From positions 62,001-126,000 of the forward strand of contig JASJBF010000018.1 in the NCBI GenBank assembly GCA_030066685.1: a DNA stretch of 64,000 nucleotides, written 5' to 3'. The notes below the pieces were generated by a model. It was not told the origin of the DNA. It ran no database searches and saw only the letters and a list, made by a program, of their open reading frames with translations. The translations under genes were made by a program, and so were the position numbers. Positions 9,880 to 62,215 of the stretch are shown piece after piece. The stretch is from Kiloniellales bacterium (lineage in GTDB: Bacteria; Pseudomonadota; Alphaproteobacteria; Kiloniellales; JAKSBE01). The first letter of the stretch is position 1; each line of letters begins with the position of its first letter.

Positions 9880-10413
9880 ATGGCCGAAGACGCGGCGACG
9901 GCGGGCGAAGCCGAAATCGCGATGGAGGAGAAGAAGGGCGGGATGTCGGGCAAGAAGCTCGTGCTCTTCATCGTCCTGCCTCTGCTCCTCGTCTCCGGCG
10001 GCGGGGCCGCCGCCTTCTTCCTCGGCGCCCTGGACGGGCTGCTCGGCAAGGGCGCGCCGCCGCCCGAGGTCGCCGCCGTCGACCCCGCGGCGGCTCCGGC
10101 GGCCGGTGAGGGGGTCTTCTTCGACCTGCAGGAGATGCTGGTCAACCTCAACACCGGCGGGCGCAAGACCCACTACCTGAAGATCTCGGTCAGCCTCGAG
10201 GTCGGCTCGGAGGAGGACGTCCTCCAACTGCAGCGGGTCATGCCGCGCATCGTCGACAGCTTCCAGGTCTACCTGCGCGAGCTGCGCATCGAGGACCTGC
10301 ACGGCTCGGCGGGCCTGCAGCGCCTGCGCGAGGAGCTGCTGCTGCGGGTCAACTCGGCGGCCCAGCCGACCGTGGTCCGCGACGTGCTGTTCCGGGAAAT
10401 GCTGGTGCAATAG
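9880..10413 (+). CDS. fliL: Flagellar basal body-associated protein FliL
   Basis: A 177-residue protein starting MAEDAATAG, with AGGA five bases before the ATG. A single membrane helix (about residues 22-43, LVLFIVLPLLLVSGG) is followed by an Ala/Pro linker and the FliL periplasmic domain (FFDLQEMLVNLNTGG, YLKISVSLEV, and a C-terminal VRDVLFREMLVQ). FliL rings surround stator units and support torque. It starts the long motor operon; fliM follows after three bases. An in-frame ATG at 9856 lacks a ribosome site. Confidence 0.93.
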   Translation: MAEDAATAGEAEIAMEEKKGGMSGKKLVLFIVLPLLLVSGGGAAAFFLGALDGLLGKGAPPPEVAAVDPAAAPAAGEGVFFDLQEMLVNLNTGGRKTHYLKISVSLEVGSEEDVLQLQRVMPRIVDSFQVYLRELRIEDLHGSAGLQRLREELLLRVNSAAQPTVVRDVLFREMLVQ

Positions 10414-10416
10414 GCG

Positions 10417-11505
10417 ATGGCTGACGACGAAGAGATCCAGACCGAGGCCGCCGCGGGGGAGGGCGCCGGTGACCAGGACGCCCTGATGGCCGAATGGGAA
10501 GCCATGGCCGAGGGCGAGGGGGCGGGCGAGGACGGCTCCGCGCGGGTCCTGGACCAGAGCGAGATCGACAGCCTGCTGGGCCTCGAAGACGACGCGGCTG
10601 GGGCCGGCGACCGCTCGGGCGTCTTCGCCATCATCAACTCGGCCCTGGTGTCTTACGAGCGCCTGCCGATGCTCGAGGTGGTCTTCGACCGCCTGGTCCG
10701 GATGATGTCGACCTCGCTGCGCAACTTCACCTCCGACAATGTCGAGGTCAGCCTGGACACCATCACCTCGATCCGCTTCGGCGACTATCTGAATTCGATC
10801 CCTTTGCCGGCCATGCTGACCCTTTTCAAGGCCGAGGAATGGGACAACTACGGCCTGCTGACCGTGGACAGCGCCCTGATCTACTCCATCGTCGACGTCC
10901 TGCTCGGCGGCCGCCGCGGCACCGCTGCGATGCGCATCGAGGGCCGGCCCTACACCACGATCGAGCGCAACCTGGTCGAGCGCATGGTGACGGTGGTGCT
11001 CAACGACCTCTCGGCCGCCTTCGACCCGCTGTCGCCGGTGACCTTCCGCTTCGAGCGCCTGGAGATCAATCCGCGCTTTGCCGCCATTGCCCGGCCGGCC
11101 AACGCCGCCATCGTCGCCAAGCTGCGGGTCGACATGGAGGACCGCGGCGGCCGCATCGAGTTGCTGCTGCCCTATGCCACCCTGGAGCCGGTGCGCGAGC
11201 TGCTGCTGCAGATGTTCATGGGCGAGAAGTTCGGCCGGGACTCGATCTGGGAAGGCCATCTCACCTCCGAGCTCTGGCAGACCGAAGTGGAGATCGAGGC
11301 GGTGCTGGACGAGTTCGAGCTCAAGCTGGGCGACGTGATGAACTGGCAGGTCGGCAGCCAGCTCGAGCTCAACTGCGCGCCCAGCTCGAAGGTCGGGCTG
11401 CGCAGCGGCGAGGTCACGATGGCGCTGGGCAACATGGGCCGCAAAGGCGGCCACATCGCGGTCCAGATCACCGACAAGCTGGTGCGGGAGGGCGACATCG
11501 CATGA
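10417..11505 (+). CDS. fliM: Flagellar motor switch protein FliM
   Basis: A 362-residue protein. FliM normally begins with its CheY-binding peptide; here that peptide (LDQSEIDSLLG, residues 45-55) follows a 44-residue acidic extension. The middle CheC-like domain includes NSALVSYERLPMLEVVFDRL and YTTIERNLVERMVTVVLNDL. The C-terminal SpoA/FliN-like domain ends near KGGHIAVQITDKL. FliM is the switch-complex subunit that receives phosphorylated CheY. It is directly downstream of fliL and overlaps the next gene by four bases. Confidence 0.96.
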   Translation: MADDEEIQTEAAAGEGAGDQDALMAEWEAMAEGEGAGEDGSARVLDQSEIDSLLGLEDDAAGAGDRSGVFAIINSALVSYERLPMLEVVFDRLVRMMSTSLRNFTSDNVEVSLDTITSIRFGDYLNSIPLPAMLTLFKAEEWDNYGLLTVDSALIYSIVDVLLGGRRGTAAMRIEGRPYTTIERNLVERMVTVVLNDLSAAFDPLSPVTFRFERLEINPRFAAIARPANAAIVAKLRVDMEDRGGRIELLLPYATLEPVRELLLQMFMGEKFGRDSIWEGHLTSELWQTEVEIEAVLDEFELKLGDVMNWQVGSQLELNCAPSSKVGLRSGEVTMALGNMGRKGGHIAVQITDKLVREGDIA

Positions 11506-11954
11506 GCCTGTCCCTTATCATCGACGCCGTCGTCATCCTGCTGCTGCTGGCGACCATCGGCTACGCCGCGGTGTTGAACCGCCGGCTGATCCGCCTGCGC
11601 AGCGCCAAGGACGATATGGCGGCGCTGCTCAAGGAGTTCGGCGAAGCGGGCGCGAAGGCGCAGCAGGCGCTGGCCGCCCTGCATGGCGAGGGCCAGGCCA
11701 CGGCCGAGAAGCTGGACGGCCTGCTCGAGCGGGCCAGGTCTCTGAGCGACGACCTGGTGTTCCTGATCGACCGCGGCGACCGACTGGCGGATTCCCTGGC
11801 GGCCTCCGAGGCCGGCACCGCGGGCCGCAAGCCGGCGGCGAAGCGGCCGACCCGGCCGGCGCCGGTGGTCGTTGCCGGAACCGAGCCGGCGCGCGACGAC
11901 AAGGCCGGCGGGTCCGCGGCGGCGCTCTTCAAGTCCCTGCAGGGCATGCGTTAG
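11502..11954 (+). CDS. DUF6468-like membrane-anchored protein of flagellar operon
   Basis: A 150-residue protein that overlaps fliM by ATGA. One N-terminal membrane helix (LIIDAVVILLLLATIGYAAV) is followed by a cytosolic coiled coil (LIRLRSAKDDMAALLKEF and onward) and a disordered, Ala/Pro/Lys-rich tail. I recognise it as the small protein often found between fliM and motE in Rhodospirillales, annotated as a DUF6468 family member. Its function is unknown to me; the strict coupling to fliM suggests a role at the switch or stator. Confidence 0.75.
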   Translation: MSLSLIIDAVVILLLLATIGYAAVLNRRLIRLRSAKDDMAALLKEFGEAGAKAQQALAALHGEGQATAEKLDGLLERARSLSDDLVFLIDRGDRLADSLAASEAGTAGRKPAAKRPTRPAPVVVAGTEPARDDKAGGSAAALFKSLQGMR

Positions 11955-11976: not shown

Positions 11977-12600
11977 ATGAATCTCAGGCTCTTACCCCTG
12001 CTCATCGTCGCCGCGATGGTGATGCTGGGTGTGCGTGCCGGCGATCTCTGGCAAGGCCTCGCCCAGGCCGCAACCGCCGAGACCGCCGAAACTCAGGTCG
12101 CGCCGCCGCCGCCCGACACCCAGCCTGCGGCCGCCGGCGCCGAGCCGGCTCCCGCGGAGGTCCGGCCGGTCGACCCCTTCTCGCTGACCGACAGCGAGAT
12201 CGAGCTCCTGCAGAAGCTCTCGGCACGCCGGGAAGCGCTGGAGCAGCGCAGCCTGGAGCTGGAGCAGCGCGCGGTCCTGCTGAGCGCGGCCGAGGCCCGG
12301 ATCGAGGAACGCATCCAGGAACTCAAGGCGCTGCAGGCCAACATCGAAGGCATGATCGAGCAGCGCGACGAGAAGCAGGAGGCCCAGCTGCGCAGCCTGG
12401 TCAAGATCTACGAGAGCATGAAGCCCAAGGAGGCGGCGCGGATCTTCGAGGAGCTCGACATGACCGTCCTGCTCGAAGTCATCGACCGGATGAAAGAGCG
12501 CAAGTCGGCGCCGATCCTGGCCAAGATGAACCCCGACAAGGCCAAGGAGGTCACGGTCGAGCTCGCGGACAAGCACAAGCTGCCCCTGCGCCGCAACTGA
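11977..12600 (+). CDS. motE: MotE-like periplasmic motor chaperone
   Basis: A 207-residue protein with a signal or anchor helix (LLPLLIVAAMVMLGVRAG), a Pro/Ala linker, and a long coiled coil of about residues 70-140 (LSARREALEQRSLELEQR onward). The C-terminal segment YESMKPKEAARIFEELDM with APILAKMNPDKAKEV resembles the MgtE N-terminal fold. This layout matches MotE, which in Sinorhizobium stabilises the periplasmic motor protein MotC. No MotC is recognisable in this window, so the client may be the large TPR protein at the end of the operon (inference). Confidence 0.82.
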   Translation: MNLRLLPLLIVAAMVMLGVRAGDLWQGLAQAATAETAETQVAPPPPDTQPAAAGAEPAPAEVRPVDPFSLTDSEIELLQKLSARREALEQRSLELEQRAVLLSAAEARIEERIQELKALQANIEGMIEQRDEKQEAQLRSLVKIYESMKPKEAARIFEELDMTVLLEVIDRMKERKSAPILAKMNPDKAKEVTVELADKHKLPLRRN

Positions 12601-12734: not shown

Positions 12735-13124
12735 ATGTCGACCGTCGACAAGAACATGCCCATCCTGATCGTGGATGACTACAAGACCATGCTGAGGATC
12801 ATCCGGAACCTGCTGAAGCAGCTCGGCTTCAACAACGTCGACGAGGCGACCGACGGCAGCGCGGCGCTCCAGAAGATGCGCGACCGCTCCTATGGCCTGG
12901 TCATCTCCGACTGGAACATGGAGCCGATGAGCGGTCTGCAGCTCCTGCAGGAGGTGCGCGCCGACGCCCAGCTGCAGACCGTGCCCTTCATCATGGTGAC
13001 CGCCGAGAGCAAGAGCGAGAACGTCGTCGCGGCCAAGCAGGCCGGCGTGACCAACTACATCGTCAAGCCGTTCAACGCCGCGACCCTGAAGACCAAGCTG
13101 ACCACAGCCATCGGCGAATTCTGA
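12735..13124 (+). CDS. CheY-like single-domain response regulator
   Basis: A 129-residue receiver domain with no output domain. The acidic pocket is in ILIVDDYKTM; the phospho-acceptor Asp is in LVISDWNMEPMSG; the conserved Thr and Lys lie in IMVTAES and NYIVKPFNAATL. It most resembles CheY that binds FliM. The open frame begins earlier at 12672, but MSTVDKNMPILIVDD is the expected start. It lies between motE and the CheZ-like gene, inside the motor operon rather than with cheA/cheW, which are not in the window. Confidence 0.92.
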   Translation: MSTVDKNMPILIVDDYKTMLRIIRNLLKQLGFNNVDEATDGSAALQKMRDRSYGLVISDWNMEPMSGLQLLQEVRADAQLQTVPFIMVTAESKSENVVAAKQAGVTNYIVKPFNAATLKTKLTTAIGEF

Positions 13125-13137
13125 GGCGCGTTCCGCG

Positions 13138-13791
13138 ATGACCGCCGCGTCGCAGAGGGCGGACCTGGACGCGCGCCTGGCCGCCCTGTCCCGGTCCCAA
13201 GTCAAGCTCGATCCGAAGGACCTGGTCGAGGTGGTCGAGTCGATCATGACCACGATGGAGGGCGACGTCACCTCGGTGAACGTGCGCTTCTACGCCGAGA
13301 TCGAGGCGCTGGCCCGCTACATCCACGAGACCAAGGCCGAGATCGCCTCCCTGCGCCCGGACGAGATCACCGATACCCATCTGCCGACCGCGACCGACGA
13401 ACTCGAAGCGGTGGTCGGCGCCACCGAGACGGCGACCGAGGCGATCTTCGAGGCAGTCGAGAAGATCGAGGAGTTGACCGCCGGCATGGACCAAGAGGTC
13501 TCGGCCAAGGTCGTCGAGGCCGTGACCATGGTCTACGAGGCCTGCAGCTTCCAGGACATCACCGGGCAGCGCATCACCAAGGTGGTCAAGGCCCTGAAGC
13601 ACATCGAGGCCAAGGTGGAGGCGCTCCTGGAGGCCTTCGGCAGTGAGCTGAAGCGCGACGGGCGGGCCGCGGCGCCGGCTGTCGGGCCGGTCGATCGGCG
13701 GCCCGACGGGGCGCTGATGAACGGTCCGCAGCTGCCCGAGGACGCCAAGAGTCAGGACGACATCGACGCGCTTCTGGCCAGCCTCGATTGA
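13138..13791 (+). CDS. cheZ: CheZ-like protein phosphatase
   Basis: A 217-residue all-helical protein. The catalytic motif of CheZ is present as CSFQDITGQRITKVV, with Asp140 and Gln144 in the expected spacing. The C-terminus ends SQDDIDALLASLD, the amphipathic CheY-binding tail; it resembles the peptide in the FliM of the same operon. CheZ removes phosphate from CheY, here encoded 13 bp upstream. The long helical hairpin of about residues 25-170 matches the family. Confidence 0.88.
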   Translation: MTAASQRADLDARLAALSRSQVKLDPKDLVEVVESIMTTMEGDVTSVNVRFYAEIEALARYIHETKAEIASLRPDEITDTHLPTATDELEAVVGATETATEAIFEAVEKIEELTAGMDQEVSAKVVEAVTMVYEACSFQDITGQRITKVVKALKHIEAKVEALLEAFGSELKRDGRAAAPAVGPVDRRPDGALMNGPQLPEDAKSQDDIDALLASLD

Positions 13792-13798
13792 GGTCGTC

Positions 13799-14488
13799 AT
13801 GAGCCGGGCTGCAACGCCGCACCAGGGTGTGCAGAAGGACCCGAACATCGTCGCCCTGCTCAGCCTGCAGCTGCTGCTCCTGGCCTTCTTCATTCTTTTG
13901 AACGCCCTGTCCAAGTTCGAGGATGAGAAGACGCGCCGGGTCCTGGAGAGCGTGAACGACACCTTCAACGGCCAGGTGCAAGCGGTGCGCAACGCCGCCA
14001 GTTACAGCGGCGCGATCGGCAGCCTGGACGACGGCCGCAGCCTGGTGGCCGAGCTGAAGCGGCTCTTTACCTCGGCGCTGCCGGCGACCCGCGTCGAGCA
14101 GACCTCCCGGGCCAACGTCTTCCGTCTCGAGCTGCCCGCGACGAAGCTCTTCGAGGCCGGCAGCGTCGAGCTGCGCAGCGGCCGGCTGGGTCTGCTCGAG
14201 CGGATCAGCGATGCGCTCAAGCGGCGCCAGGCTCGGGGCCAGGGCTTCCGCCTGCGCTGGCTGCACGGGGTCGCCTCGACCCGCGAGCGGCGCCTCGCGG
14301 CGCCGGCGCCGAGCCTGCTCGAGATCCGCCGGCTCGGCCAGGTAATCGACGAGCTCCTGGCGCGCGGGGTCGCGGCGGACCGCCTGGCGATCGGTGTCGA
14401 GCCGATCGGCGAGGGCCGCATGGTGCTCGAGATCCGCCTGCCCGAAGGCCCCGGGACCGCCGGGGAGACCGGGGAGCAGAGGCGATGA
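13799..14488 (+). CDS. MotB-like protein lacking the proton-channel aspartate
   Basis: A 229-residue protein with one N-terminal membrane helix (NIVALLSLQLLLLAFFILL) and a periplasmic region with weak OmpA/MotB-like character. Aligned on the conserved helix end (ALSKFE against AMSRVE in the next gene), the essential MotB aspartate position is Ser22. It therefore probably cannot carry protons alone and may be an accessory or partner subunit. It overlaps the next motB-like gene by four bases. The family assignment is from layout and synteny. Confidence 0.7.
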   Translation: MSRAATPHQGVQKDPNIVALLSLQLLLLAFFILLNALSKFEDEKTRRVLESVNDTFNGQVQAVRNAASYSGAIGSLDDGRSLVAELKRLFTSALPATRVEQTSRANVFRLELPATKLFEAGSVELRSGRLGLLERISDALKRRQARGQGFRLRWLHGVASTRERRLAAPAPSLLEIRRLGQVIDELLARGVAADRLAIGVEPIGEGRMVLEIRLPEGPGTAGETGEQRR

Positions 14489-15255
14489 GCGACGACCACC
14501 GGGAAGACGACGAGCCCGTCGAGGAGCCGGTCGTCCTGGCCTCGGCGCCGCTTTTCGGCGGGGCCGCCGCCGCCCAGCCGGACAACAGCCAGGCCTGGAT
14601 GGTCACCTTCGCCGATCTGGTGGCCCTGCTGCTCACCTTCTTCGTCCTGCTCTTCGCCATGTCGCGGGTAGAAACCCGCGACTGGCAGAACCTGGTCGAC
14701 GCCCTGTCCCAGAGCCTGAACCGGATCAGCGAGAGCCGGATCGCGGTCCCCGACGTCGACCTCGACCTGAAGAGGGTTCAGCCGGTGCCGGGCGCCAACC
14801 TCGACTACCTCAGCACGGTGCTGCGCGACCAGATGGCGGGCCACACGGTCCTGTCCCGCGCCGTGCTTCGGCGCCAGGACGAGCTGCTGATCATCTCCCT
14901 GCCGGCCGACCTGCTGTTCGCGCCGGGCTCAGTCGAGCCCGCGGCCCGGGCCGACGATGCGCTCTTCGCGATCTGCGGGGTCCTGCGAAACCTGGAGAAC
15001 CGGATCGAGATCGCCGGGCACGCCGATCCGACGCCCCCGGGCGCCCGCTGGCCCTCGAACTGGAACCTTTCGCTCGGCCGCGCGCTCTCGGTCGCCGCGC
15101 GCCTGCAGGGCAACTGCTACCGCAAGGACGTGGTCGCCCTCGGCTTCGGCGACGCCAGGTTTGCCGACCTGCCGGCCGGCCTGCCCAGCGCCCAGCGCCG
15201 CGCCCTCGCGCGCCGGGTCGACATCGTCATCCACGAGACCGCGGCGCGGAAATGA
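14485..15255 (+). CDS. motB: OmpA-domain MotB-like stator protein
   Basis: A 256-residue protein with an acidic, cytosolic first 35 residues. The membrane helix WMVTFADLVALLLTFFVLL contains the channel aspartate (Asp44) as in MotB. The C-terminal OmpA/MotB peptidoglycan-binding domain shows IEIAGHADPTPPG and WNLSLGRALSVAARL. It would anchor a stator to the cell wall and conduct ions with a MotA partner. No motA is in the window. It is coupled to the preceding Asp-less paralogue and to the TPR gene by ATGA overlaps. Confidence 0.85.
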   Translation: MSDDHREDDEPVEEPVVLASAPLFGGAAAAQPDNSQAWMVTFADLVALLLTFFVLLFAMSRVETRDWQNLVDALSQSLNRISESRIAVPDVDLDLKRVQPVPGANLDYLSTVLRDQMAGHTVLSRAVLRRQDELLIISLPADLLFAPGSVEPAARADDALFAICGVLRNLENRIEIAGHADPTPPGARWPSNWNLSLGRALSVAARLQGNCYRKDVVALGFGDARFADLPAGLPSAQRRALARRVDIVIHETAARK

Positions 15256-18200
15256 TGCAGCGACCGGCCGTCCTGCTCCTGGTCCTGCTGCTCGGCTTGC
15301 TACCGCCGCCGCCGGCCGCTGCGCAGGACCCGATCCGGGTGCGCGGCGGCGTCCATGCCGACTACGTCCGAATGGTCTTCGACTGGCCGGCGCCGGTGAG
15401 CTATACGGCGCGGATTGAGGTCGGACGCCTGGTCCTGCTCTTTCCGAAGGGGCACAGCTTCGACTTCGCCCCGGCCCGCAGGATCCTCCGCAAGTACCTG
15501 ATTCTGCCGGACGGTGCGGTGGGTGGCCGCCGTCTGGCCTTCCCGCTGCTGGGCGACTTCGAGCTGCGCCACTTCACGAGCGGGCCGCGGGTGGTCGTCG
15601 ACCTGCTGCGCCGGCCCAAGGCGGACCCCAAGCCTGCCGAACCCAAGCCTGCCGAACCCAAGCCTGCCGAAGCCAAGCCCGCCGAAGCCAGGCCCGCCGA
15701 GGCCGCCCCGAAGCCGAGCGAGGCCCCGGCGGCCAGGGACATGGCGGCAGGGAAGGCCGCCGAGCCGGCCGCTGCGCGGCCCGCGATCACCGTGCGGGTT
15801 GGCCGGCATCCCGGCTACGGCCGCCTGGTCTTCGACTGGCCGGAGGCCGTGCCCTACCGGGTCAGCGCCGAGGCCGGCCAGGTCCGGCTCAGCTTTGGCC
15901 GGGCGGCGAGCTTCGACCTGGGTGGGCTCAGGCGCCGGCTGCCGCCCCAGGTCCGGGACCTGGAGGTGGCCTTTGCGCCCGACGGCATGACGGTGACCCT
16001 GACCGTCCCGCCTGCGGCCAAGGTCCGGCACTTCACCTCGGGCCCCAAGGTAGCGCTGGACATCCTGCACGACGGCAAGGCCTCGGCGACGGCGGCGCCG
16101 AAGCGGGCCGCGAAAGCCCCGACGCCCCTCACCAAGCCGCGGCCCGGGCGCAAGGCCGCCTCGGGCCGGCCCCCGGCCACGCGCGGCGAAGCGCTGCGCG
16201 CCGCGGCAGCGACGGTGACCCGGCGCCTGCCGCCCGAGGACCAGGCCCGGCCGCTGCCCGGACCGCAGGCCCCGCCGGCGCCAGAGATCTCGATCCAGCT
16301 GCCCTGGACCCGCGGCGCCAAGGCGGCCGCCTTCCGGCGGGGCAAGAACGTCTGGCTGGCCTTCGACCGCAAGGCGCCCGAGGGCCTGCGCGAAGGCTTC
16401 GCGCCCGAGTTCGGGCCCCTGAAGCGGATCGACCAGGCGGGCGGCACGCTGCTCCACTTCGAGGCGCCGGCCGGGTTCGAGCCGGCGCTGCGCCGGGTCG
16501 ACGGCCTCTGGACGGTCAAGCTGCACCGCCGGCCGGTCGCGCCCCTGCGGGGGCTGAAGGCGAAGTTCAGCGACGACCTCCGCGCCATGCTGGTGCCGCT
16601 CGGCGGCGCCGGGCCGGTCTTCCAGGTCACCGATCCCAGCTTCGGCGACCGGCTCTTCGTCGTGCCCGTCGCCGGACAGGGGCTGGGCGCCGGGGTCGAA
16701 CGGGCGCTGCCTGAGTTCCACATCCTGCCGGCTTTCCAGGGCCTGGTGATCCAGACCCTGTCGGATGCCATCCGGGTCGCGCGCAACCGGGACGAGGTGA
16801 TGCTGACCGGCCGCGGTCCCCTCACTTTGGCCGGCGGCACGATCGACCTCGCCACCGAGGAGGCGGCGCAGCCCCAGCGGCCGCGGCTCCTCGACCTCGT
16901 GGCCTGGCGCGGGCCGAAGGGCGAGGCCTTCACCAGCTTGCGCCAGAAGCGCCAGAGCGCCGTGGTCGCCGCACGGCCGCGGGCCAAGCCGAGTGCGCGC
17001 CTGGAGCTGGCCCGCTTTCTCTTCGCCCACGGCTTCGCCAGCGAGGCCCTGGGGCATCTCGAGGGCGTCCTGCGCGAGCGGCCGGACCTGGCCCGCTCGC
17101 CCCAGGTCGTGCTGATGCGGGCGGCCGCCCGTTTCCTGCGCGACGACTTCGAGGCCGCGGCCAAGATCCTCGACGACCCCGGCCTCGCCGGCGAGTGGGA
17201 GGCCGAGCTCTGGCGCGCCGCCGTGGCGGCGCGGGCGCAGGACTGGGAAGCCGCCGCCTCCGGCTTCGCCCGGACCGCCGGTCTGATCGCCGACTATCCC
17301 CCGCTCGTTCGCGCCCGCCTGTGGCTGCTGGCCGCGGAAGCCGCCCTGCAGAACGGCAACACGGCGGTCGCCAGCGAGCGCCTTGCGGAGCTGGCGGCCG
17401 ACCGTCCGCCGCAGGGCCAGCAGGACCGGCTCCGCTTCCTCCAGGGCCTCAGGGCCGAGATCGACGGCGACGCGGCGAGCGCGCGCCGGATCTGGAAGCA
17501 GGTCGCCCAGGGCCAGGACCGGCCGGCCCGGGCCCGGGCCCGGCTGGCGCTGGTCGACCTCGATCTGGCGCAGAAGAAGATCAGCCCGGAAGAGGCGATC
17601 GCGGAGTTGGAGCGCTTGCGCTTCGCGTGGCGCGGCGACTACTTCGAGTTCGCCCTGCTGGAGCGGCTGGCCGACCTCTACCTTGGCCAGCTCGATTACC
17701 GCAAGGCCCTGAACATGCTTCGCCAGACCGCGTCCTACCTGAAGGATTTCCGGCGCTCGGAGGCGGTCGGGCAGAAGATGCGGGCGATCTTCGCGCAGGT
17801 CTACCTGGGCGGCGGCGGCGACAAGCTGCCGCCCCTGACCGCGCTCGGTCTCTACGAGGATTTCCGCGAGCTGACCCCGGTCGGCGCGGAGGGCGACCGC
17901 ATGATCGCCGCGCTGGCCGACCGTCTGGTCGAGGTCGATCTGCTCGACGAGGCCGGCGACCTGCTGCAGGCGCAGGTGAAGGATCGCCTCTCGGGGCGCG
18001 AGAAGGCCCGGGTCGGCGCCCGGCTGGCGCTGATCCGCCTGCTCGACACGGCGCCCGCCGAGGCCCTGAAGGCCCTGGACGCCAGCGCTGCGCGCGGCCT
18101 GCCGGCGGATCTGGACCGGGAGCGGCGCTACCTCCGCGCCAAGGCCCTGGCCGGGGTCAACCGCGGCGCCGAAGCCCTGAAGATCATCGAGGCCGAGACC

Positions 18201-18584
18201 TCGCGGGCGGCGCTGGAGCTGCGGGCCGAGATCGAGACCAAGCTGGGCCGCTGGGCGGCGGTCGCGAAGACCCTGTCGCGCCTGCTGCCCGAGACGCCGG
18301 CCGAGGGCGAGCTCCCTCCGGAGCCGGGCCGCAAGACCATCCTCAGCGTGGCGGTCGCGCTCACCCTGGCCAAGGACCGGGCCGGCCTGCAGGCCTTGAA
18401 GCAGCGTTTCGGCGCGAGCATGGCGCGGACCGCCGAGCGCGAGACCTTCGCCCTGCTGGTCGACGCCGAGGCCGGCGGCGGCGCGCCGATCGCCGAGGTC
18501 CTGAGCCGCGCCGGCCACGCCGAGGCCTTCCTTGCCTCCTACCGGAAGCGCCTGGCCGACGGCCAGCTCAGCGAGCTGAACTAG
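15252..18584 (+). CDS. Large periplasmic TPR protein with AMIN-like repeats
   Basis: A 1110-residue protein beginning MMQRPAVLLLVLLLGLL with a signal peptide ending near AAAQD. Two similar N-terminal modules of about 100 residues share RLVFDWP-like and RHFTSGP(R/K)V motifs and resemble AMIN or related envelope-binding domains; a PKPAE-repeat linker separates them. A third diverged copy lies near residues 350-430. The C-terminal 550 residues are helical TPR-like repeats. It overlaps motB and closes the fliL-to-motB operon, so a periplasmic motor scaffold is likely (inference). Its stop codon TAG is the first three bases of a palindrome. Confidence 0.85.
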   Translation: MMQRPAVLLLVLLLGLLPPPPAAAQDPIRVRGGVHADYVRMVFDWPAPVSYTARIEVGRLVLLFPKGHSFDFAPARRILRKYLILPDGAVGGRRLAFPLLGDFELRHFTSGPRVVVDLLRRPKADPKPAEPKPAEPKPAEAKPAEARPAEAAPKPSEAPAARDMAAGKAAEPAAARPAITVRVGRHPGYGRLVFDWPEAVPYRVSAEAGQVRLSFGRAASFDLGGLRRRLPPQVRDLEVAFAPDGMTVTLTVPPAAKVRHFTSGPKVALDILHDGKASATAAPKRAAKAPTPLTKPRPGRKAASGRPPATRGEALRAAAATVTRRLPPEDQARPLPGPQAPPAPEISIQLPWTRGAKAAAFRRGKNVWLAFDRKAPEGLREGFAPEFGPLKRIDQAGGTLLHFEAPAGFEPALRRVDGLWTVKLHRRPVAPLRGLKAKFSDDLRAMLVPLGGAGPVFQVTDPSFGDRLFVVPVAGQGLGAGVERALPEFHILPAFQGLVIQTLSDAIRVARNRDEVMLTGRGPLTLAGGTIDLATEEAAQPQRPRLLDLVAWRGPKGEAFTSLRQKRQSAVVAARPRAKPSARLELARFLFAHGFASEALGHLEGVLRERPDLARSPQVVLMRAAARFLRDDFEAAAKILDDPGLAGEWEAELWRAAVAARAQDWEAAASGFARTAGLIADYPPLVRARLWLLAAEAALQNGNTAVASERLAELAADRPPQGQQDRLRFLQGLRAEIDGDAASARRIWKQVAQGQDRPARARARLALVDLDLAQKKISPEEAIAELERLRFAWRGDYFEFALLERLADLYLGQLDYRKALNMLRQTASYLKDFRRSEAVGQKMRAIFAQVYLGGGGDKLPPLTALGLYEDFRELTPVGAEGDRMIAALADRLVEVDLLDEAGDLLQAQVKDRLSGREKARVGARLALIRLLDTAPAEALKALDASAARGLPADLDRERRYLRAKALAGVNRGAEALKIIEAETSRAALELRAEIETKLGRWAAVAKTLSRLLPETPAEGELPPEPGRKTILSVAVALTLAKDRAGLQALKQRFGASMARTAERETFALLVDAEAGGGAPIAEVLSRAGHAEAFLASYRKRLADGQLSELN
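15627..15701 (+). repeat. 15-bp coding minisatellite (PKPAE repeats)
   Basis: Three perfect copies of CCCAAGCCTGCCGAA (15627-15671) are followed by two diverged copies. The unit is five codons, so copy-number changes would lengthen or shorten the linker between the two AMIN-like modules without shifting frame. Confidence 0.9.
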
Positions 18585-60667: not shown

Positions 60668-62215
60668 CTAGAGGGACTCCAGGAACCGCAGCAAGGCCTC
60701 GCGCTGCGCCTTCGGCAGGCGGCGGAAGGCGTCGCGCGACGCGGCGCCCTCGCCGCCGTGCCAGAGGATGGCCTCGGCCGGGCTGCGGGCGCGGCCGTCG
60801 TGCAGGTAATGGGCCCGGCCGCCGAGCTCGCGGGTGCGGCCGAGGCCCCAGAGCGGCGGCGTCCGCCACTCCCGGCCGCTGGCCAGGAACTCCCTGCGGC
60901 CGTCGGCCAGGCCCTCGCCCATGTCGTGGAGCAGGAAGTCGGAGTAGGGGTGGAAGACCAGGTCCGAAAGGACTCCGGCCTCGGCGTGGCGGCCGCTGGT
61001 CATCTGGACCGTGTGGCAGGCGGCGCAGCCGATGTCCTCGAAGAGCTCGGCGCCCTCGACCACCCGCGGATCCGAGGTGCCGCGCCGGCCGGCCGGGCTC
61101 AGTAGCTGCATGTAGAACACCAGGGCGTCGAGATCGGTCTCGGAGATCTCCGGTCGGTCGCCCTGGGGCTGGGCCCGGCAGAGCGGCTCGGCCGCGGGGC
61201 AGTTGGGCTGCGGAAAGACCGGCGAGGTCACGCCCATATCGCTGGACAGCGCCCCCGCGGTCTGCTGGCGCAGCGAGGCCGCCCCCGCCTTCCAGCCGAA
61301 GCGGCCGATCTTCCGCCGGCCGTCCTCGGGATCGATGACGTAGTTCGCACGCCCCGAGATGCCGTCGCCGTCGGCGTCCTCCGGATCGGCTCGGGCCAGC
61401 AAGTCGTCCTCCGACAGCGCCTCGACCAGACCGAGGCCGATGACCGGCGGCGGCAGCCGAGGCGAGGTCTCGAGCGCGGTCGGGAAGGGCCCGTAGGCCG
61501 GCTCGGCGACGGTGAAGCGGGGCCGGCGCAGGCTGTAGCTCTCGCCGTCCGCGAAACGGCCGGGGATCTCCTCGTAGCTGACGTCGATGCGTCCCTTGGG
61601 CCGGAGGCCGGCAACCGCCCGGTAGTTCAGCTGGCCGCCGTAGCGCGGATCCGGCTCCGGCGGCGCAGCCGGCGCCGCCCCGGGCTGGCTGATCTTGAGG
61701 ATCAGGGTGCCCAGATCGCCCGCAGCGGGATCGGGAGGCCGACCCCGGCCGTTCTTCACGTGGCAGCGTGCGCAGCCCAAGGCGTCGTAATGCGGCCCGA
61801 TGCCGTCGCGCGCGCCACTGTCGAAGCGGCCCGCCGGCGCCCAGTTGGCGTTGAAGATCCGGTTGCCGCGCAGGAACTCGGCCTCGGCCTGGCCGGCGGG
61901 AAAGCCGACCGGCAGCTTGAAGGGGCCGTCCAGGACCGCGCAGTAGGCGACCGGATTGGACGAAAGGCAGCGCTCCTGGAAGAACTTCGTGCCGTCGTAG
62001 GCGTCGTCGGAGCCGTAGGCCAGTTCCGGCGCGTCGGGATCGCGATAGACGCTGGGATCGCCGAAGTCGACCTTCGGCGCTGCGGCCGGCGCATTCAGAA
62101 GATCGCCTGGCGGGCCGCAGCCGGCCGGGGCCAGCAGGCCGGCGAGGCAGAGCGCTGCGGCAGCCCGTCGCGGGCGGCGCCTCAAGCCTTCGATCGGAAA
62201 CCTTGGGTCCGGCAT
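60668..62215 (-). CDS. Dihaem DHOR-family lipoprotein (putative peroxidase)
   Basis: A 515-residue protein with lipobox LAPAGC near residue 32 and two haem sites, CARCH and CAACH. The rest matches the DHOR (DUF1111) family of dihaem oxidoreductases related to MauG and cytochrome c peroxidase: GLGLVEALSEDDLLARADPE, DGDGISGRANYV and the C-terminal RTPPLWGLGRTRELGG. The start ATG 62215 is chosen since the frame upstream is Arg/Gly-rich and unlike exported proteins. Substrate unknown. Confidence 0.9.
   Translation of the reverse strand: MPDPRFPIEGLRRRPRRAAAALCLAGLLAPAGCGPPGDLLNAPAAAPKVDFGDPSVYRDPDAPELAYGSDDAYDGTKFFQERCLSSNPVAYCAVLDGPFKLPVGFPAGQAEAEFLRGNRIFNANWAPAGRFDSGARDGIGPHYDALGCARCHVKNGRGRPPDPAAGDLGTLILKISQPGAAPAAPPEPDPRYGGQLNYRAVAGLRPKGRIDVSYEEIPGRFADGESYSLRRPRFTVAEPAYGPFPTALETSPRLPPPVIGLGLVEALSEDDLLARADPEDADGDGISGRANYVIDPEDGRRKIGRFGWKAGAASLRQQTAGALSSDMGVTSPVFPQPNCPAAEPLCRAQPQGDRPEISETDLDALVFYMQLLSPAGRRGTSDPRVVEGAELFEDIGCAACHTVQMTSGRHAEAGVLSDLVFHPYSDFLLHDMGEGLADGRREFLASGREWRTPPLWGLGRTRELGGRAHYLHDGRARSPAEAILWHGGEGAASRDAFRRLPKAQREALLRFLESL

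Follow-up and report, generated by a model that had tools for sequence, protein, structure and literature searches.

The 64,000-nt window analyzed here (positions 62,001 to 126,000 of contig JASJBF010000018.1 from a Kiloniellales bacterium, assembly GCA_030066685.1) contains, at positions 15252-18584, a gene for a large AMIN/TPR protein. This protein is very probably the MotE-partner spoke of the flagellar motor, of the PflA/MotK/FssB kind, and would position and stabilize the stators. The system is of a known kind, the recently recognized spokes that run from the E-ring to the torque units, and the window protein is a new and larger member of it. Its unusual parts are three AMIN modules, as opposed to one in MotK, a conserved extra β domain, and the strictly paired MotB and aspartate-less MotB encoded upstream in the majority of relatives.

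The reading as a motor spoke follows from published work on MotK, FssB, and PflA. Both Cereibacter MotK and Caulobacter FssB (CC_2058) combine AMIN and TPR domains, and their genes adjoin motE (PMC10954123, PMC13023049). Rotation depends on MotK, a protein that interacts with both MotE and MotB2 (PMC10954123), and deletion of CC_2058/FssB in Caulobacter results in a paralyzed flagellum, as does deletion of motB (PMC7885107). A single E-ring family comprising MotE, FlgY, and FlbB has been proposed, with MotC, MotK, CC_2058, and PflA as the TPR partners (PMC13023049, PMC11870540). In the Campylobacter motor, FlgY and PflA are in contact, and the PflA spokes bear the stator-holding PflB rim (PMC11870540, PMC12222027).

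Translation of the window gives an open reading frame of 1110 residues on the + strand with no internal stop. A scan of GTDB genomes gave 220 matching stretches from other genomes (80 were kept) in which the frame is preserved, and chance is thereby excluded as its explanation. The matches come from Kiloniella, Pelagibius, Azospirillum, Insolitispirillum, Fodinicurvata, and others. By inspection, the N-terminus is charged and then hydrophobic up to AAA-Q, which is a classical Sec signal, and homologs have similar N-terminal starts. Beyond this signal, no further membrane helix is evident in the full-length AlphaFold (AF2) model (mean predicted local distance difference test score, pLDDT, 84.2). 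The initial annotation, made from the sequence alone, had described an exported AMIN/TPR protein of this length with a long TPR superhelix and "two or three" related envelope-binding modules; the reading frame, the signal, and the model bear this out and set the number of modules at three. The parts of the protein are as follows.

15252..15323, + strand: probable signal peptide of the Sec type, residues 1-24 (by inspection only)
15333..15611, + strand: AMIN module 1, residues 28-120 (AlphaFold), absent from 9 of 54 homologs
15612..15788, + strand: Pro/Lys/Glu-rich linker of low confidence with 15-nt tandem repeats (KPAEP)
15789..16067, + strand: AMIN module 2, residues 180-272, best match the AMIN domain of AmiC
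16284..16526, + strand: AMIN-like module 3, residues 345-425, with the same strand-helix-strand order, present in 54 of 54 homologs
16557..16808, + strand: fourth β domain, residues 436-519, fold unassigned, present in 54 of 54 homologs
16896..18560, + strand: TPR solenoid, residues 549-1103, about 29 helices

Each of the three AMIN modules is modeled as about eight strands and a short helix, and disordered linkers separate the modeled domains; the N-terminal half modeled alone gives the same picture. At the DNA level, modules 1 and 2 have a common stretch of 93 nt that is 75% identical. The in-frame 15-nt tandem repeats at 15621-15707 encode the (KPAEP)-type linker between these two modules, the length of which varies among relatives. 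The fourth β domain (16557-16808) carries invariant residues. In the solenoid, pLDDT is mostly above 90. Its length is 554-563 residues in 54 of 54 homologs, whereas that of the second linker varies between 30 and 222; the near-constant solenoid beside freely varying linkers suggests a strut of fixed radius.

In structure comparisons, the best match of the AMIN modules is AmiC (Z 13.1, root-mean-square deviation 2.2 Å over 99 residues), followed by PilQ (Z 10.4-12.5); small heat-shock proteins score no higher than Z 8.1. PilQ is also recovered by sequence profile (E 0.001). Thus, the N-terminal part consists of AMIN-type β-sandwiches with AmiC and PilQ matches well above the next rows, and the long helical part has both profile and fold matches to TPR proteins. 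The single-sequence Pfam scan shows AMIN-like and TPR matches below threshold only, and the domain calls of the initial annotation went further than this routine scan. A search of the source genome with PF11741 found one AMIN gene only, at another locus; the model misses the spoke modules because they are too divergent for it. An AmiC-type amidase was considered and ruled out, since the Pfam scan of the spoke protein shows no amidase match after the AMIN modules.

The best Foldseek match of the whole model among 350,542 PDB chains is chain K of 9hmf (E 2.7e-10, 865 columns). This entry is the periplasmic scaffold of the Campylobacter motor, and chain K is identified as PflA by its length, its 773 residues equaling residues 16-788 of C. 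jejuni PflA. The fold is therefore PflA-like, with an agreement that is local and not global. A profile search of PDB sequences did not find PflA, and thus the likeness to PflA is by fold only. Two other candidates, PorW/SprE (NCBIfam E 0.007, Foldseek 4.7e-7) and TTC21/IFT-A, were rejected as generic TPR similarity; they belong to different systems and have no gene context here.

Sequence homology was established for MotK. Two MotK orthologs, one on a Paroceanicella plasmid and one in genome G044, were recognized solely by the gene order fliL-pflI-motE-motA-X. Both are colinear with the family profile (hhalign E 7e-8 and 3e-6); the two alignments set in at the same place, the start of the solenoid with its tryptophan, and continue from there. 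In the search of genome G044 with the TPR profile, the MotK gene is the sole match (E 2.4e-8). By inspection, its product contains GEHSDFTRLV, which resembles the family AMIN motif GxHxxxxRLVFDW. The initial annotation had seen no MotC in this operon; the window protein, being homologous to the MotK orthologs, is itself the MotC/MotK equivalent.

Several observations weigh against the assignment. The TM-score to 9hmf_K is just 0.14-0.19, because the superhelices curve differently. TPR solenoids look alike, and after 9hmf_K Foldseek gives IFT-A, Ctr9, and SprE at 1e-8 to 5e-7. The VIA list is filled by generic TPR proteins, and 9hmf is not among the matches listed there, so that the fold alone was not taken as proof. 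Given the low global TM-score and the other TPR proteins next in rank, the 9hmf match supports the assignment and does not prove it. The MotK score is also modest, at 34 bits for an ortholog defined by synteny; TPR genes that are probably unrelated reach as much as 27 bits in that search.

The occurrence of the gene follows that of flagella. It was examined in a sample of the same order (30 genomes) and in a class-wide sample (57 genomes); in the latter, FliM was counted when strong. The spoke protein is present in 23 of the 30 genomes of the order. Six of the seven genomes without it also have no FliM, and in the seventh FliM lies at the very start of a contig. In the class sample, 29 of the 30 genomes with strong FliM match the TPR profile, and in the lone exception the contig ends just ahead of the expected position of the spoke gene. 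The other 27 genomes yield two matches, one at a contig start with no FliM detected and one in a genuine fliL-pflI-motE-motA-MotK locus. Thus, the family occurs together with flagella in the class sample, and homologs widespread without flagella, which the initial annotation would have counted against its proposal, were looked for in the order and class genomes and not seen. No relative of the spoke protein was found in the viral contigs searched.

The flagellar gene cluster that contains motE also holds the spoke gene, and the operon has the following composition.

9883..10413, + strand: fliL (Pfam/NCBIfam)
10417..11505, + strand: fliM (Pfam/NCBIfam)
11501..11954, + strand: gene in the pflI position for a small, membrane-anchored coiled-coil protein (putatively pflI, by position)
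11980..12600, + strand: motE, with an MgtE_N domain (Pfam/NCBIfam)
12735..13124, + strand: cheY-type response regulator (sequence and conserved position)
13138..13791, + strand: cheZ (Pfam/NCBIfam)
13799..14488, + strand: motBx, aspartate-less MotB paralog with serine at the channel aspartate position and a degenerate OmpA region
14485..15255, + strand: motB, with the channel aspartate and an OmpA domain; 4-nt overlap with the spoke start
15252..18584, + strand: AMIN/TPR spoke protein of the MotK/FssB/PflA type, 1110 aa

The fliL, fliM, motE, and cheZ genes and both MotB-type genes were confirmed by Pfam/NCBIfam; fliL and motE had been placed upstream in the initial annotation. The window motE also matches the spirochete collar protein FlbB (NF047368, E 6e-7). 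The start codon ATG of the spoke gene at 15252 overlaps the motB stop codon TGA (15253-15255), and an overlap of the same type joins motBx and motB at 14485-14488, so that the translational coupling to MotB stated in the initial annotation is real. Immediately downstream, fliP runs in the opposite direction; thus, the spoke gene closes the operon, as had been proposed.

The operons of the order are alike: 18 of 22 loci show every named gene save the small pflI-like one, and the remaining four are cut off at a contig end. Among the 54 loci with more than 9 kb upstream, 51 show motE and 50 show fliM. In one genome (G074), the spoke gene is located away from motE. Three flagellar plasmid loci of Roseobacteraceae (Rhodobacterales) have a run of fliL, fliM, a small gene, and motE with no TPR gene adjoining motE, and adjacency to motE is thus not universal there. 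The co-occurrence that the initial annotation proposed to check holds for motE, and also for fliM, but not for the aspartate-less MotB. MotB and this paralog are both present in 60 of 74 loci, both absent from 14, and never found singly (0/74). The 14 loci without the pair still have both motE and the TPR gene, so that it is motE that accompanies the spoke gene constantly.

The spoke protein is exported to the periplasm and, by analogy with the relatives, would form a strut running from the MotE E-ring to the stators. Binding of MotE, binding of stators, the orientation, and the phenotype would all be those of the relatives. The three N-terminal AMIN modules on flexible linkers may reach peptidoglycan and/or MotB and FliL, and the spoke would thereby position and stabilize stator units. 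Its loss would leave flagella assembled and paralyzed. A periplasmic stator-related scaffold, as suggested in the initial annotation, is still the best reading; most likely, the protein is a spoke that runs radially from the MotE E-ring to the stators, and not by itself a ring or disk.

Among the closest known counterparts are MotK of Cereibacter sphaeroides and its Rhodobacterales orthologs. MotK similarly has a signal peptide, an N-terminal AMIN, and then TPR, is encoded in a fliL-pflI-motE operon, and is colinear in sequence, with a common LDLxxW...LAxFYxAHxFxxEA stretch at the solenoid start. However, MotK has 652 residues and one AMIN and follows motA, whereas the window protein has 1110 residues, three AMIN, and an extra β domain and follows the MotB pair. 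FssB (CC_2058) of Caulobacter crescentus, compared by description, is an exported TPR protein with an AMIN-like N-terminus, is encoded just downstream of motE (CC_2059), and is needed for rotation and not for filament assembly (PMC7885107, PMC10954123). Its gene is directly beside motE (PMC13023049), whereas cheY-cheZ-motBx-motB intervene in the window. PflA of Campylobacter jejuni and Helicobacter pylori shares the AMIN β-sandwich, the flexible linker, the TPR superhelix, and partnership with a MotE homolog, FlgY. It has no detectable sequence similarity to the window protein, carries a single AMIN, and acts together with the PflB rim, of which no counterpart is known here, where no search aimed at one was made. 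MotC of Sinorhizobium meliloti is likewise a periplasmic TPR protein that partners MotE, and its gene lies downstream of motB, but it is described as lacking AMIN (PMC13023049), and the three AMIN modules rule out assignment to this Rhizobiaceae subtype. The collar proteins FlcB and FlcA of Borrelia, likened by description only, are TPR-rich partners of the E-ring protein FlbB, a relative of the window motE; they form a spirochete collar, and no AMIN is reported for them in the available excerpts of the description.

Another explanation is that the protein is a MotB-specific periplasmic anchor or chaperone with no link to the E-ring, in which AMIN holds peptidoglycan and the TPR groove holds the periplasmic domains of MotB. 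The translational overlap with motB and the immediate adjacency of the spoke gene to the MotB pair wherever the pair is present are consistent with this, as is the binding of MotB2 by Cereibacter MotK (PMC10954123). We nevertheless consider it unlikely, given that 14 of the 74 loci have motE and the TPR gene without the pair and given that the closest structural match is the PflA spoke. A role as a PflB-like rim, or as a self-assembling ring or disk component around the stators, is very unlikely. A large TPR scaffold within a stator operon would fit it, and PflB is TPR-rich too; however, the defining traits of PflB are a transmembrane segment and, within its TPR domain, a β pair (PMC11870540), while the model shows no strands within 549-1103 and no membrane helix other than a signal of the cleavable type, and AMIN modules are a PflA/MotK trait. 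It is still less probable that we deal with a general envelope TPR protein, for example, one of outer-membrane or peptidoglycan assembly, that merely is located in a flagellar cluster. Both AMIN and TPR are common in envelope proteins and other TPR proteins score in Foldseek, but the presence of the gene tracks flagella across the order and the class, and its operon position is constant.

The MotE partners of Alphaproteobacteria were thought to be alike in fold and almost not in sequence. Here, one family profile recognizes the spoke gene, nearly always near motE, in nearly every flagellated alphaproteobacterium sampled. This reach of the profile, the MotK locus included, speaks for a single ancestral E-ring and spoke within the class.

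The pairing of the two MotB proteins is strict but is not explained by the spoke reading. The channel aspartate is present in all 72 readable MotB sequences and replaced in 70 of 71 paralogs, by serine in 54, glycine in 9, and alanine in 7; the window motBx has serine. The paralog mostly lacks the OmpA peptidoglycan motif, and pairwise BLAST of the window MotB against motBx found no similarity. A literature search for a described MotB paralog without the aspartate found none, although a description that the search missed may exist. A speculative and rather improbable scenario for this lineage is a dedicated stator module with the spoke, in which MotB is always accompanied by a paralog without the channel aspartate and the peptidoglycan motif. 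The two could combine into a heterodimeric B subunit that has just one proton path, or else the pseudo-MotB could be a membrane foot of the spoke; the triple-AMIN spoke would then supply the wall anchor that the pseudo-MotB lost. The paired aspartate-less MotB thus raises a directly testable question on stator composition.

Outside the window, the same genome contains a separate adjacent MotA-MotB pair and a further lone MotA (G000:C41; G000:C18:31815-32150). The lone MotA sits in a flagellar run beside fliH- and fliN-type genes, as identified by inspection. With these genes at hand, the MotB pair of the operon may work with the lone MotA.

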